The notes under the pieces were generated by a model. It saw only the letters and a list, made by a program, of their open reading frames with translations, had not been told where the DNA came from and searched no databases. A stretch of 64,000 bases of DNA from Candidatus Pelagibacter sp. RS40. GTDB taxonomy: Bacteria; Pseudomonadota; Alphaproteobacteria; Pelagibacterales; Pelagibacteraceae. Within the stretch, counting starts at the first letter, position 1. Each line of letters begins with the position of its first letter. Both the position numbers and the translations under genes were made by a program. Shown here one piece after another: positions 32,791 through 44,856 of this stretch. The DNA is taken from assembly GCF_002101295.1 (NCBI RefSeq), contig NZ_CP020778.1, forward strand, positions 496,001 to 560,000, in the 5' to 3' direction.

Positions 32791-33390
32791 TTATTTTTTC
32801 TCTGCGGGACTTTCTTGTTTTTGCTCCTCTTTTTTAATTTCTTCTTTTGGAGCTTCTGCTACTGCCTCTTTTTTAACTTCTTCTTTTGGAGCTTCTGCTA
32901 CTACTTCTTTTTTAGCTGCATCGGAGCTTGCATCAGATTTTGGAACTTCTTTTGAATTCTCATCTGTTGCTGGCAAAACATTTTCTTCAGTTACTTGTTG
33001 AATTTTTGTTTCTATATCAATTCCAATTTTCTTTTTAATCTTTTCAGCTATTCTTGCTGATTTACCTGTTCTATCTCTTAGATAATAAAGTTTTGCTCTT
33101 CTTACCTTTCCAGATCTTACAACTTTAATTGTATCAACAATTGGACTGTACAATGCAAATGTTCTCTCAACACCTTCACCAAATGAAATTTTTCTAACAG
33201 TAAAAGATGAGTTTATATCTCTATTTTTTTTTGCAATACACACTCCTTCAAAATACTGTATTCTGTCTCTTTTACCTTCGGTAATTCTTACTCCAACTTT
33301 TACTATATCTCCTGGAAAAAAATCAGGATGTTTTCTCTCAGAAACAATTTTTTTTACAATGGATTGATTGATTTCTTCAATATTTTTCAT
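32791..33390 (-). CDS. rplS: Ribosomal protein L19 with charged C-terminal tail
   Basis: Large-subunit protein at the subunit interface. Residues 1-122 form the normal L19 core ([60 protein letters not shown]). Residues 123-199 are a low-complexity Lys/Glu/Ala tail, making the protein 199 residues against about 115-130 in most bacteria. The tail includes a tandem 13-residue repeat beginning [12 protein letters not shown]. It follows trmD by 1 bp in the rpsP-trmD-rplS operon. Confidence 0.95.
32830..32913 (-). repeat. 39-bp tandem repeat inside the rplS tail
   Basis: Two head-to-tail 39-bp units at 32830-32868 and 32869-32907 differ at only three positions, and the start of a third unit follows. 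On the coding strand each encodes 13 residues of the form [15 protein letters not shown] (residues 160-172 and 173-185 of L19). The unit is a multiple of three, so copy-number change would keep the frame. Confidence 0.9.
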
Positions 33391-33391
33391 T

Positions 33392-34087
33392 TTAGTTCTT
33401 TTTAGTCTTCTTATATTTTTCCCACAAATCTGGTCTTCGGTCGCGTGTTATAGCCTCAGATTGTGATAAACGCCAGTCTTTAATTTTGGCATGATCTCCT
33501 GATAATAACACTTCTGGCACACCTTTTTGCTCGAAAATTTGAGGTTTAGTATATTGAGGATATTCCAAAAGACCATTTTCGAAACTTTCATTTTTAGATG
33601 AGTTCACATTGCCTAAAACACCAGGAACAAATCTTAAAATCGCATCAAGAACCACAAATACAGCTGTTTCACCTCCAGACAAAACAAAGTCTCCAATACT
33701 TATTTCCTCTATATTTCTGCTATCAATTATCCTTTGATCAATGCCCTCAAAATGACCACATATAAAATTAATTGATTCAAATTCTGAAAATCTTTTTGCA
33801 CAATTATGATCAAAAATTTTTCCTTTTGGGCTAAGGTAAATTATTTTTTCATCCTGTGGTAAATTTTTATCCAATGATCTTGCTAATACATCTGCTTTCA
33901 TTATCATACCATCACCACCACCATACGGTGTATCATCAACTGTCTTGTGCTTATCCTCAGCATAATTTCTAATATCCACAATTTCTAAACTCCAAATTTT
34001 TTCCTTCATAGCTTTGCCAAATAATCCTTTTTCTAAATAGCCTGGAAAATAGTCTGGATACAAAGTGAATACTCGAGACTTAAACAT
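33392..34087 (-). CDS. trmD: tRNA (guanine-37-N1)-methyltransferase
   Basis: SPOUT-class enzyme that methylates G37 next to the anticodon and prevents frameshifting. The 231-residue protein opens with [14 protein letters not shown]. It has the conserved [17 protein letters not shown] near residue 52, [21 protein letters not shown], and the trefoil-knot S-adenosylmethionine site [14 protein letters not shown] near residue 130. It lies between rpsP and rplS with no spacers of note, the usual order. Confidence 0.97.
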
Positions 34088-34558
34088 TTATTTTTTTTCT
34101 TCTCCCTTTGGTGCTTCTGGAGCAGCTTCAGCCTTAGGAGCTTCTTTGGTATCTTCATTTTTTGGTGTTTCGCTTGTAGCATCTTTTTTAGGTGCTTCTG
34201 CATTATTATCTGATTTCGTCTCAGTTTTTGCTTCCGCTCCTTCACCATCTTTTTTGTTTCTTTCTTTTTTAGGAACTGCTTTAATAGGGTTATTTCCGTT
34301 AGCTGGCATTTCGATTATCTGGTTCTCACCAAGAATTCTGGCAACTCTAGTTGTTGGTTGCGCTCCTTGACTTAACCAATATTTAATTCTCTCTTGGTCT
34401 AGTCCTACTCTTTCTTTTTTTTCCTTTGGAAGTAACGGATTAAAGAAACCTAGCTTTTCAATAAATCTTCCATCTCTTGGAAATCTACTGTCAGCAACAA
34501 CAATTTTATAAACAGGTCTTTTTTTCGTACCACCCATTGATAATCTCATTTTTAACAT
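34088..34558 (-). CDS. rpsP: Ribosomal protein S16 with charged C-terminal tail
   Basis: Small-subunit assembly protein. Residues 1-95 are the S16 core ([45 protein letters not shown]). Residues 96-156 form a Lys/Glu/Ala/Pro-rich tail containing repeated EAPK units. The total of 156 residues compares with about 80-90 in E. coli-like S16; extended S16 proteins are known in alphaproteobacteria. The composition resembles the tail on L19 from the same operon. It lies 14 bp downstream of ffh. Confidence 0.95.
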
Positions 34559-34572
34559 TTTTTCTCCTTTTT

Positions 34573-35931
34573 TTATTTAAGTTGATTAAAAAGTTCTGGT
34601 GGTATTCCTTTGTCCGCCATTCCTTTCATATTTCCTTTAGACATCTTTTTCATCATCTCAGACATCATTTTAAATTGTTTTAACAATTTATTGATAGTGG
34701 CAATGTCAGTACCAGAGCCATTAGCAATTCTTTTTTTTCTGGATCCATCAATTATCTTTGGATTTTCTCTTTCTTTTTTAGTCATAGATAAAATTACAGC
34801 TTCATTTTGAGTAATTATTTTTTCGTCAACACCTGCTTCATCCATTTGAGATTTAATTTTTGAAACACCTGGAAGAAAAGACATAATACCCTCGATCCCA
34901 CCCATTTTCTTCATTTGTCGTAATTGAGATAAATAGTCTTCTAAGGAAAATTGACCTTTTTTTAATTTTTCTTCAGTTTTTTTTAAATTTTCTTGATCTA
35001 TATCTTCAGCAGCTTTTTCAACAAGAGAAACGATATCTCCCATTCCTAAAATTCTATTTGCTATTCTGTCAGGATAAAAAATTTCAAAATTATCTATTTT
35101 TTCTCCAATTCCCAAAAATTTTATAGGAACATCTGCAACATACTTCATACTTAATGCTGCACCACCTCTTCCGTCACCATCTGATCTGGTAAGAACTATA
35201 CCAGTTAAATTTACAGTATTTTTAAATTCTTTAGCCACATTTGCAGCAACTTGACCTGTTAAAGAGTCTGCAACTAATATAGTTTCTGAAGGATTTATTA
35301 TTCCCTCTATTTGTTTAATTTCACTCATCATTTGGAGATCTATTTGAGTTCTTCCTGCTGTATCAAAAAGAATTACCTCGGAGCCATTCAGGTTTGCTGC
35401 ACTTAAAGCTCGTCTGCAGATGTCTGCAGGTAATTGACCTTCAATAACAGGTAAAGTAATTATGTTATTTTGTTCACCAAGTAATTTTAATTGTTCTTGT
35501 GCAGCTGGCCGGTACACATCAAGGCTAACCATCATTACTTTTTTTTTATTATTTTTTTCTAGAAATTTGGCCAGCTTTGTAGTGGTGGTAGTTTTTCCTG
35601 ATCCTTGTAATCCCACTAACATAATAGGTACAGGTGGAACAGCATTAAGGAGAATATCTGAATTTTTATCACCTAAAAATGATACAAGTTCATCGTAAAC
35701 AATTTTAACAACCATTTGCCCAGGTGATGTTGATCTTACTATCTCTTTACCTAGAGCTTTTGGTTTAACTCTGTTTATGAATTCTTTTACAACATCTAGA
35801 GATACATCGGCCTCTAATAAAGCAAGACGAATAGCACGCAATCCTTCATCCACTTGTTTTTCATCAAGAGAGGGTGCTTTTTTTAAAGAGGAAAAAATTT
35901 CCTCAAATTTATTTGTTAAATTTTCAAACAT
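34573..35931 (-). CDS. ffh: Signal recognition particle protein Ffh
   Basis: GTPase that binds signal sequences on nascent membrane proteins together with SRP RNA. The frame is open to 35955, but [18 protein letters not shown] at 35931 is the normal start, giving 452 residues. The G domain has [33 protein letters not shown] and [14 protein letters not shown]. The methionine-rich M domain begins near residue 320 ([14 protein letters not shown]) and ends [20 protein letters not shown]-rich structured RNA lies directly upstream. Confidence 0.97.
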
Positions 35932-35947
35932 AATTTTACACAGCAGG

Positions 35948-36040
35948 TACCGCACCAGTGGGCGAACCCTCGCTGACTGGTGTCGATCTCTTTGTTACCA
36001 AAGACACCGCAAATTGCTGTATTTTGCGGAAACTGCGGTA
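35948..36040 (-). ncRNA. Structured leader RNA upstream of ffh
   Basis: About half the bases are G or C (53 of 100 at 35941-36040) in a very AT-rich neighbourhood. On the minus strand a 7-bp closing stem (TACCGCA at 36040-36034 with TGCGGTA at 35954-35948) encloses three hairpins. The first is CCGCAAA/TTTGCGG (36029-36007). The second, at 36006-35981, is topped by a GUAA tetraloop. The third, at 35980-35955, is topped by UUCG over GGG/CCC. GNRA and UUCG loops occur only when read on the minus strand. It ends 16 bases before the ffh ATG. A TTGACT (36067-36062) and TATAGT (36047-36042) lie just upstream, but their 14-bp spacing is short. It lacks the conserved GGAA and AGCAG parts of SRP RNA. 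Confidence 0.72.
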
Positions 36041-36090
36041 AACTATAATAGAGGTTCAAAAAGTCAATAAATAAGTTAAGTATTTAATCT

Positions 36091-43698: not shown

Positions 43699-44856
43699 TT
43701 AGATTTTTACTTTTGCTATTGGACCAAACTCATTTTCGTAAGCAAGTTTGTAATTAGGCTGATTCATCAGCAAGTACTTCATTACTCTCTTAGCATACGC
43801 TTTCTGTGAGTCTATGATTTTCTTGAAGAATGGATCTTTTCCAGAAAAGTCACCGACTACTTTGTCCCAACCTTTTAACTGCTCAGAAAGAATTGCATCT
43901 GAAGTTTGATATACATTTACTTTATGCTCATTCATTAACTTAGATAAGTCAGCTGAATATCTTACTAAAGCTTTAAAGTAGTTATCAGTGTTTGCAGCAT
44001 AAGCAGCATTTTTCAAAATTGCTTGATGTGCAGGCGAAAGGTTGTTGTATGATTTTTTGTTAATAGGAATTTCAAACATCTCCTGAGATTGGTGGAAACT
44101 ACCTAAGTGATAGTGCTTAGATACATCCTGCATACCAAACTGAGAGTCTGAAGTTGGGTTGTTAAACTCAGCTGCATCAATCAAACCAGTTTTCATTGCT
44201 GGTTGGATTTCTCCACCTGGTAACTGTCTTACGACCATTCCCATTGCAGTAAGAACGTTAGTTGCAAGACCAACTGTTCTGTACTTCATTCCTTTAACGT
44301 CGGATACTTTAGTTACATTCTTTTTAAACCATCCGAATGGTTGAGCTGGCATAGGCATATGAAAGAAACCAACATAGTCAAAACCAACTTTTGCTAAAGT
44401 TTCTTCATATAGAGCTCTTCCTCCACCATATTCCATCCATCCCATAACTTCTTGTGATGACATACCGTATGATGGTCCTGTTCCAAATAATGAAGCTGCA
44501 GGGTTTTTTCCATACCAATATGCAGTCACCCAGTGACCCATATCAAGTACTCCAGAACTTACTGCCTGTCCAATTTCGGAAGTTTTAACAACAGCTCCGA
44601 CTGGTTGTAAGTCAATTTTTAATGTTCCGCCTGACATCTGATCAACCATTTTCGCATAGTCTCCTGCCATTTCGAAAAAGATATTTGCTCCGCTAGGCCA
44701 AGCTGCTTGCATTTTAAGAGTAGTATGACCACCCCCCAATGCAAGATTAGGCATTGCTACTGCTGCTGTTGCTGCTGCACCAGTTGCTGCTGCCGTTTTA
44801 AAGAACTTACGTCTTGAAGGAATTTTACCCTTCAAAGGTTTTTTTTCTTTAACCAT
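43699..44856 (-). CDS. dctP: TRAP transporter substrate-binding protein with Tat signal
   Basis: Periplasmic binding protein of 385 residues. The N-terminus carries a twin-arginine signal (SRRKFFK at 14-20, then an Ala-rich stretch to about residue 40). DctP-family features are LKMQAAWPSGANIFFEMA, PVGAVVKTSEIGQAVSSG, and KGMKYRTVGLATNVLTAMGM with the carboxylate-binding Arg. LPGGEIQPAMKTGLIDAAEF follows. It resembles the TakP/FcbT group, which binds 2-oxoacids or aromatic carboxylates, so an organic acid is the likely substrate. A strong ribosome-binding site and an inverted repeat lie upstream. Confidence 0.94.
   Translation of the reverse strand: MVKEKKPLKGKIPSRRKFFKTAAATGAAATAAVAMPNLALGGGHTTLKMQAAWPSGANIFFEMAGDYAKMVDQMSGGTLKIDLQPVGAVVKTSEIGQAVSSGVLDMGHWVTAYWYGKNPAASLFGTGPSYGMSSQEVMGWMEYGGGRALYEETLAKVGFDYVGFFHMPMPAQPFGWFKKNVTKVSDVKGMKYRTVGLATNVLTAMGMVVRQLPGGEIQPAMKTGLIDAAEFNNPTSDSQFGMQDVSKHYHLGSFHQSQEMFEIPINKKSYNNLSPAHQAILKNAAYAANTDNYFKALVRYSADLSKLMNEHKVNVYQTSDAILSEQLKGWDKVVGDFSGKDPFFKKIIDSQKAYAKRVMKYLLMNQPNYKLAYENEFGPIAKVKI

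Follow-up and report, generated by a model that had tools for sequence, protein, structure and literature searches.

The control of Ffh levels in the cell is only partly understood. An 'ffh motif' was described in 'Cand. P. ubique' as a 'single bulged hairpin' that is unlike the Ffh site of 4.5S RNA (Meyer 2009, PMC2704228), and in the account of the motif given there no transcriptional or translational control of Ffh had been described at that time. The same paper reports the motif to be widespread in Rhodobacterales, Sphingomonadales, and Rhizobiales, cites its occurrence in marine metatranscriptomes, and gives the 'Cand. P. ubique' type genome as the closest match for approximately 20% of marine metagenomic reads. 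In Bartonella, the ffh leader RNA is named among the expressed small RNAs (PMC7717549), and an RNA of Mesorhizobium is filed under RF01793 (PMC5596092). The sm5 candidate of S. meliloti occupies, like the leader, the dapF–ffh intergenic region and is oriented towards ffh, with a sigma70 promoter and a predicted length of 108–258 nt; it is classed as a putative small RNA that may end in a terminator, and the likeness noted here is one of position (PMC2573895). The rpsB and rpsL ribosomal protein leaders of Meyer 2009 are also comparable, as they are structured and head operons of RNA-binding proteins; binding of a ribosomal protein in the ffh leader is putative.

The window analyzed here is a stretch of 64,000 nt from Candidatus Pelagibacter sp. 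RS40 (NZ_CP020778.1, positions 496,001 to 560,000), and SAR11 refers throughout to the order of this genome. A Rfam covariance-model search returned RF01793 as the sole match in the whole window at gathering scores (35997–35945, minus strand; 55.2 bits, cut-off 35, full-length 1–52), and a permissive Rfam scan of 35900–36090 gave nothing besides RF01793. As in the published motif, the match immediately precedes ffh in the same orientation, is divergent from dapF, and contains the bulged hairpin with two conserved C residues in its internal loop (C35975/C35960 in the window copy). We assign the region 35948–36040 to the ffh motif of Meyer 2009 (PMC2704228), of which it is the SAR11 copy, as the sequence-only reading had surmised; as an element it is thus not new. 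The 52-nt model of RF01793 and the model of Meyer 2009 pair a single hairpin, here termed HP3; two further hairpins (HP1 and HP2) and a strand shared between them are absent from both (Table 1). The motif is thus known already, but its anatomy is larger than published and in part exchanging; HP1, HP2, and the shared strand are new within the open-licence literature searched, where we also found no strand exchange or RNA switch for ffh.

Table 1. Coordinates of the ffh leader and operon in the window
Feature	Position	Strand	Description
ffh	34573..35931	-	start taken at ATG 35931; mechanical ORF begins at GTG 35955
rpsP	34088-34558	-	ORF, next in line after ffh
trmD	33392-34087	-	ORF, after rpsP
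rplS	32791-33390	-	ORF, after trmD
Predicted -35 box TTGACT	36062..36067	-	motif reading
Predicted -10 box TAGTTT	36040..36045	-	spacer 16; predicted +1 near 36033-36034
HP1	36007..36029	-	CCGCAAA (36029-36023) with UUUGCGG (36013-36007)
Shared strand CGGU	36006..36009	-	A2 columns 27-30; CGG ends the HP1 3' arm; all four can act as the 5' strand of the extended part of HP2
HP2 core	35989..36004	-	UCUUUG / GUAA loop / CAAAGA
AUCG, alternative partner of CGGU	35984..35987	-	A2 columns 49-52
HP3 (published ffh motif)	35953..35982	-	CACCAGU/ACUGGUG, inner stem GCGA/UCGC, loop GGGU
Tail CGGUACCUGCUG	35941..35952	-	between HP3 and start codon, from alignments; many relatives ..UGYUGG or ..GUUUGG

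A GC-rich leader RNA read on the minus strand into ffh had been proposed from the sequence, and both the enrichment and the orientation hold, with the stated 53% GC measured as 51.6% against 31.2% for the window. Of the 63,907 windows with a length of 93 nt, only 24 are as GC-rich as the leader, and these form two runs, the leader itself and 44686–44795. The latter contains a GCTGCTGCTG run and by eye resembles a signal region at the N-terminus of a gene on the minus strand, so coding sequence rather than RNA. Folding of the 123 nt from 36050 to 35928, which include the predicted -10 box, gave -44.2 kcal/mol (z = -4.43), and 0 of 200 shuffles were as low. The best fold contains HP1, HP2, and HP3, with an outer pairing to the start-codon region instead of the enclosing stem proposed earlier.

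RF01793 was detected in 175 of 197 SAR11 genomes, with one copy each among the matches listed. Twenty of the 22 genomes without a match were searched with the Ffh of the window; six of them gave matches, which were distant paralogues (29–32% identity) or 3' pieces at contig ends, and the ffh start was absent from all 20, so that the misses look like assembly gaps. In the class, 106 of 385 genomes match at E 0.001, and 81 lie above the cut-off. When 20 of the class genomes with no match listed were searched at the protein level, 19 had a match, and in 18 ffh was nearly complete. Permissive scanning of 15 of these 18 loci revealed a sub-threshold RF01793 match directly before ffh in four (L259, L265, L270, and L273; 27.3–29.7 bits, E 0.14–0.52 for the whole scan), and the class count is thus likely a lower bound. 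Some true members probably fail to pass the Rfam cut-off or filters. At the level of the phylum, 55 of 299 genomes match, all from the genome's own or the same class, and the 244 without a match include an unstated share from outside the class. RF01793 was found in 0 of 14 control genomes.

Related loci were collected for comparison, and 189 of 194 contain the ffh N-terminus within the same stretch, as determined with tblastn; HP3 lies no more than 300 nt before the called start in 185 of the 189. The five loci without the N-terminus (L151, L156, L168, L179, and L185) were left out, as were duplicates (L027, L046, L050, L051, L056, and L057) and four loci in which HP3 was missed by a finder that has the C.C mismatch built in (L035, L137, L142, and L204). 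The first C of this mismatch reads U in three loci (L137, L142, and L204). In total, 109 SAR11 loci were used, and 37 sequences at most 94.5% alike were aligned from the HP1 start (alignment A2).

A promoter-like signal precedes the leader at a fixed distance. TTGAC occurs 85–97 nt upstream of the HP3 core in all 109 SAR11 loci, and a -10 hexamer follows at a spacer of 16 or 17 in 107 of them, where the best hexamer of spacers 15–18 was taken, so that one is always assigned. The hexamers are TAGTTT (41 loci), TAGGTT (20), TAATTT (18), TAAAAA (14), and others (16). The UUCC of HP1 begins 8–9 nt after the predicted -10 in 98 of the 109 loci, and this spacing places HP1 at most about 5 nt from where the mRNA is predicted to begin. 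A simple sigma-70 consensus scan of the window reported no promoter at TTGACT/TAGTTT, and ffh is not named in the main text of the differential RNA-seq paper on HTCC7211 (PMC5069720). A transcript start downstream of 35948 would keep the element out of the mRNA, as had been pointed out from the sequence; the predicted start lies upstream, still inside the proposed interval 35948–36040, and would leave the hairpins within the transcript and most of the 5' arm of the proposed enclosing stem outside it. The same closeness of HP1 to the predicted 5' end would also fit a leader that merely guards the 5' end and gives the mRNA a fixed half-life with no ligand involved. The conservation of HP3 would far exceed what a guard needs, and we consider this explanation rather unlikely.

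Compensatory changes show that all three hairpins are kept in SAR11. In A2, 97.8% of the 858 cells of HP1, HP2, and HP3 are paired, compared to 91.7% in shuffled alignments, 11 pairs have a two-sided change (6.1 shuffled), and 67 cells carry a double change (18.3 shuffled); 0 of 500 shuffles reach any of these values. The number of further pair types in A2 is not above that of shuffles (198/500). Three of the seven pairs of HP1 have a two-sided change, and the hairpin is remodelled yet kept in L070 and L071 and takes a CCGG-type form in other families. For HP2, two-sided changes were found in all six pairs; CUUUG-N4-CAAAG is present in 73 of the 109 SAR11 loci, and its loop is of the GNRA type in 72 of the 73. 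HP3 is paired in 100% of cells and nearly invariant, with two-sided changes at columns 56–81 and 57–80 (5 and 16 of 37 sequences) and none in the other nine pairs. Its internal loop holds the mismatches C.C (35975/35960) and A.C (35974/35961), and the second of these positions reads A.C in 40, C-G in 16, G-U in 7, U-A in 6, A.A in 5, and G-C in 4 of 78 class loci. The claim of a selected RNA structure in the ffh leader is right.

Compared to dinucleotide shuffles, the 56 nt before HP3 are structured, with a mean z of -2.34 in SAR11 (46 of 68 at -2 or below) and a weaker -1.41 in the rest of the class (24 of 77). As controls, the 56 nt after the tail gave -0.71 (11/66) in SAR11 and 0.10 (1/77) in the class, and the 56 nt upstream of the predicted start gave 0.15 (2/60) and -0.33 (11/78), respectively. 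An automatic HP2 finder that allows loose stems picked long spurious stems in numerous class loci, and its counts were set aside.

The sequence-only reading had counted four helices, with a 7-bp stem enclosing the three hairpins. The hairpins stand and the enclosing stem does not; a better description is three hairpins plus one alternative helix. The enclosing stem (36034..36040 with 35954–35948, minus strand) exists as complementarity in the window's own sequence. In an alignment of 37 SAR11 sequences that includes the promoter (A1), it is paired in 54.7% of cells compared to 54.2% after shuffling, and 193 of 500 shuffles were as high; the compensatory changes sought in four stems thus support HP1 to HP3, and the fourth stem is no better than shuffles. 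Swapping of arms among 78 distinct arm pairs was as good in 38 of 500 trials, and the five pairs outside HP3 can form in only 15 of 109 loci, even with a one-base shift allowed. The 3' arm takes U35954 and G35953, the last two pairs of HP3, and the 5' arm (36040–36034) overlaps the last base of the predicted -10 box plus the spacer to +1. A UUCG tetraloop, also proposed earlier, would require GGG/CCC, but the GGG varies among relatives in A2, and the conserved inner stem is GCGA/UCGC. A further candidate, pairing of GGUGUC in HP1 with GACACC in HP3, was rejected as C33-G52 is lost in A52 sequences (read from A2, uncounted).

The alternative helix was revealed by RNAalifold, which on A2 skips HP1 and extends HP2 by C27-G52, G28-C51, G29-U50, and U30-A49. 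HP1 also uses C27, G28, and G29, and the two helices are mutually exclusive. Extended HP2 plus HP3 has 98.7% of cells paired compared to 92.3% shuffled and 64 double-change cells compared to 17.6, with further pair types not above shuffles (495/500). Both helices are conserved in SAR11, and the result is mixed in other families of the class. Column 27 covaries with column 5 of HP1 as well as with column 52 of the HP2 extension: columns 5/27/52 read G:C:G in 96, A:U:A in 11, G:U:G in 1, and G:U:U in 1 of the 109 SAR11 loci. The published model covers just one of the three hairpins, and the shared-strand anatomy offers single-base handles (column 27 with 5 and 52) on whether the leader is a switch and on what it would sense.

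These changes were placed on a tree of the ffh 5' part from 108 of the 109 loci (L085 is short and was left out), with a midpoint root and parsimony counts. Column 27 changes on four branches, which make up 4.9% of the tree length, and these same branches carry all three changes of column 52 and both of column 5; the coincidence could be overstated owing to long branches and midpoint rooting, and a clade of eight sits on a branch of 0.56. By parsimony, the A:U:A type has two origins, in this clade of eight and in a clade of three with G:C:G neighbours. The two origins come from all 108 rows, and a group comparison of the 11 A:U:A rows with only the two G:U rows gives one change. The G:U:G sequence, L130, looks like a wobble intermediate.

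The same triple covariation would be expected if columns 5, 27, and 52 formed a base triple at the HP1/HP2 junction in one static fold. U:A:U is a geometry used by base triples and is present in L055 and L164, while G:C:G would require an unusual triple. As RNAalifold lengthens the pair of columns 27 and 52 into a helix of four pairs, we regard a static triple as improbable.

Predicted energies of the two folds are close in the window sequence, at -30.0 and -29.8 kcal/mol (0.2 apart), and the predicted probabilities of the competing pairs are 0.67 and 0.33 for G28 and 0.81 and 0.18 for column 27. In the genome's own genus, most sequences are predicted to have 0.6 kcal/mol between the folds. 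For family f2, 9 of 11 sequences have a predicted difference of 3.3–3.8 kcal/mol in favour of HP1 (p ~0.99), with L091 and L101 at -1.0, and L070 is predicted to favour the alternative fold (p 0.95). Near-equal energy is thus not kept throughout SAR11. In another SAR11 locus, L139, changes at columns 29 and 48 give a continuous extended HP2, which is favoured for G28 (p 0.91), and weaken the outer pairs of HP1, making it a natural variant that leans to the alternative fold.

Outside SAR11, the matching HP2 base is present in 30 of the 78 loci from the class, and columns 27 and 52 form a standard pair in 25 of these 30 (C-G 16, U-A 4, U-G 3, and A-U 2) and read C.A in 5. With the HP1 partner taken from the upstream fold, the triple is G:C:G in 14 loci, U:A:U in two (L055 and L164), and A:U:A in one (L160); the remaining loci have no predicted HP1 partner, or column 52 misfits. 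A fresh check set of 40 class loci was fetched after the triple had been noticed, and 25 of them had the anchor. The 27-52 pair is standard in 14 of the 25 (C-G 9, U-A 3, G-C 1, and U-G 1) and not in 11 (C.A 6 and A.A 5). By family, the fits are 10/10 in f24, 1/5 in f172, 0/4 in f175, 2/4 in f72, 1/1 in f179, and 0/1 in f178; f24 was already represented in the first set, and its fresh loci come from other genomes. Since f24 fits and f172, f175, and f72 mostly do not (3/13), the shared strand is lineage-limited. Selection thus appears to act on both helices in SAR11 and in genomes of the f24 type, whereas in several other families it does not do so in this form. A covariance model of HP1 and HP2 trained on SAR11 (R1) gave four matches at E up to 10 over the 78 class loci, with only L052 in place.

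Rfam assigns RF01793 the type sRNA, and HP3 with a U-rich tail could be read as an intrinsic terminator or attenuator whose product is a small RNA. Such a reading is in line with the predicted Rho-independent terminator and the microarray signal given for sm5 between dapF and ffh in S. meliloti (PMC2573895), and at least five U in 8 nt are present in 34 of 66 distinct class tails. In SAR11, only 5 of 46 distinct tails have five or more, and the window tail CGGUACCUGCUG has two in 8 nt. A terminator scan found none on the minus strand here, and the hairpin is not followed by a run of U. For this leader, we judge the terminator reading to be quite unlikely.

Three genes follow ffh in the window, which we take, from their protein sequences, to be rpsP, trmD, and rplS. 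Among 20 class loci fetched with approximately 6 kb each, all 20 have rpsP after ffh in the same orientation, 17 have trmD and 16 rplS within the stretch, and the order ffh-rpsP-trmD-rplS is repeated in most. In the window, trmD begins directly after rpsP (34087–34088), and the two starts are 471 nt apart; the match starts of rpsP and trmD are approximately 0.9–1.2 kb apart in 15 of the 17 class loci that have both. The gene rimM often sits between rpsP and trmD, and this spacing leaves room for it. Both S16 (34088–34558) and L19 (32791–33390) carry long Lys/Glu/Ala-rich C-terminal tails in the window.

With rpsP constantly behind ffh, an operon product other than Ffh stays a rival ligand, and ribosomal protein S16 or L19 may bind the leader and repress the operon. 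The gene counts above agree with this, as does the fact that the method which yielded the ffh motif also turned up two likely leaders of ribosomal protein genes in that genome (Meyer 2009, PMC2704228). Against it, ffh is the first gene, the motif adjoins ffh, and the literature found on autoregulation of rpsP, rplS, or ffh contains no alphaproteobacterial leader among the matches listed. Control by S16 or L19 is conceivable and in our estimate somewhat unlikely.

The reading that we prefer, with a probability of roughly 55%, is that the element acts in cis as the leader of ffh-rpsP-trmD-rplS, and that a product docked on HP3 favours the strand exchange and so lowers its own synthesis. HP3, the most conserved part and the one with the C.C mismatch, would be the docking site for an operon product, most likely Ffh. 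The docked product would favour the extended HP2, which nearly abuts HP3. HP1 would then open and free the mRNA 5' end, and the mRNA would become less stable or less translated, so that an excess of product would cut its own synthesis. Hairpins at the 5' terminus shield mRNA from RppH and RNase E. The few nucleotides before HP1 at the predicted 5' end may give these enzymes access in either fold, which counts against the proposal. The distance from HP3 to the called start is 21–42 nt in SAR11 (107 loci) and 17–231 nt elsewhere in the class (78 loci, where a few of the called starts may be wrong), and the wide spread outside SAR11 speaks against simple blocking or any other mechanism in which HP3 has to sit at the ribosome site. 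A stronger version, in which the leader of SAR11 and at least one other family is a bistable switch that hands CGGU to the neighbouring hairpin and the operon is set by the HP3-docked product, would use an exchange that is near equal in energy in the window's own sequence; we put it forward tentatively, with the odds against it. If the switch reading is true, the exchange would set the expression of the whole SRP and ribosome operon.

Binding of Ffh to the leader would lead one to expect a mimic of domain IV of SRP RNA, which is the Ffh site. By eye, HP3 lacks the CAGG/AGCA loop of this domain. Feedback through base pairing with SRP RNA, another suggestion made from the sequence, finds no support, as the leader and SRP RNA of the same genome pair no better than swapped partners: swaps were as good as own pairs in 787 of 2000 trials in SAR11 and in 1472 of 2000 in other Alphaproteobacteria. 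A mixed set gave 25 of 2000, and as neither group alone gives such a value, it is taken to reflect base composition. Among 14 SAR11 genomes searched, RF00169 was absent from G022 and from the incomplete G093. The SRP RNA of the window's own genome lies outside the window (L209 1501–1599; C1:760724–760822) and matches RF00169 at 50.2 bits. Its domain IV reads CCCCAGG..AGCAAGGG, while that of relatives such as G068, G004, and G001 reads GGUCAGG..AGCAGCC; the flanking pairs of the domain look swapped between the strands, with CAGG/AGCA retained.
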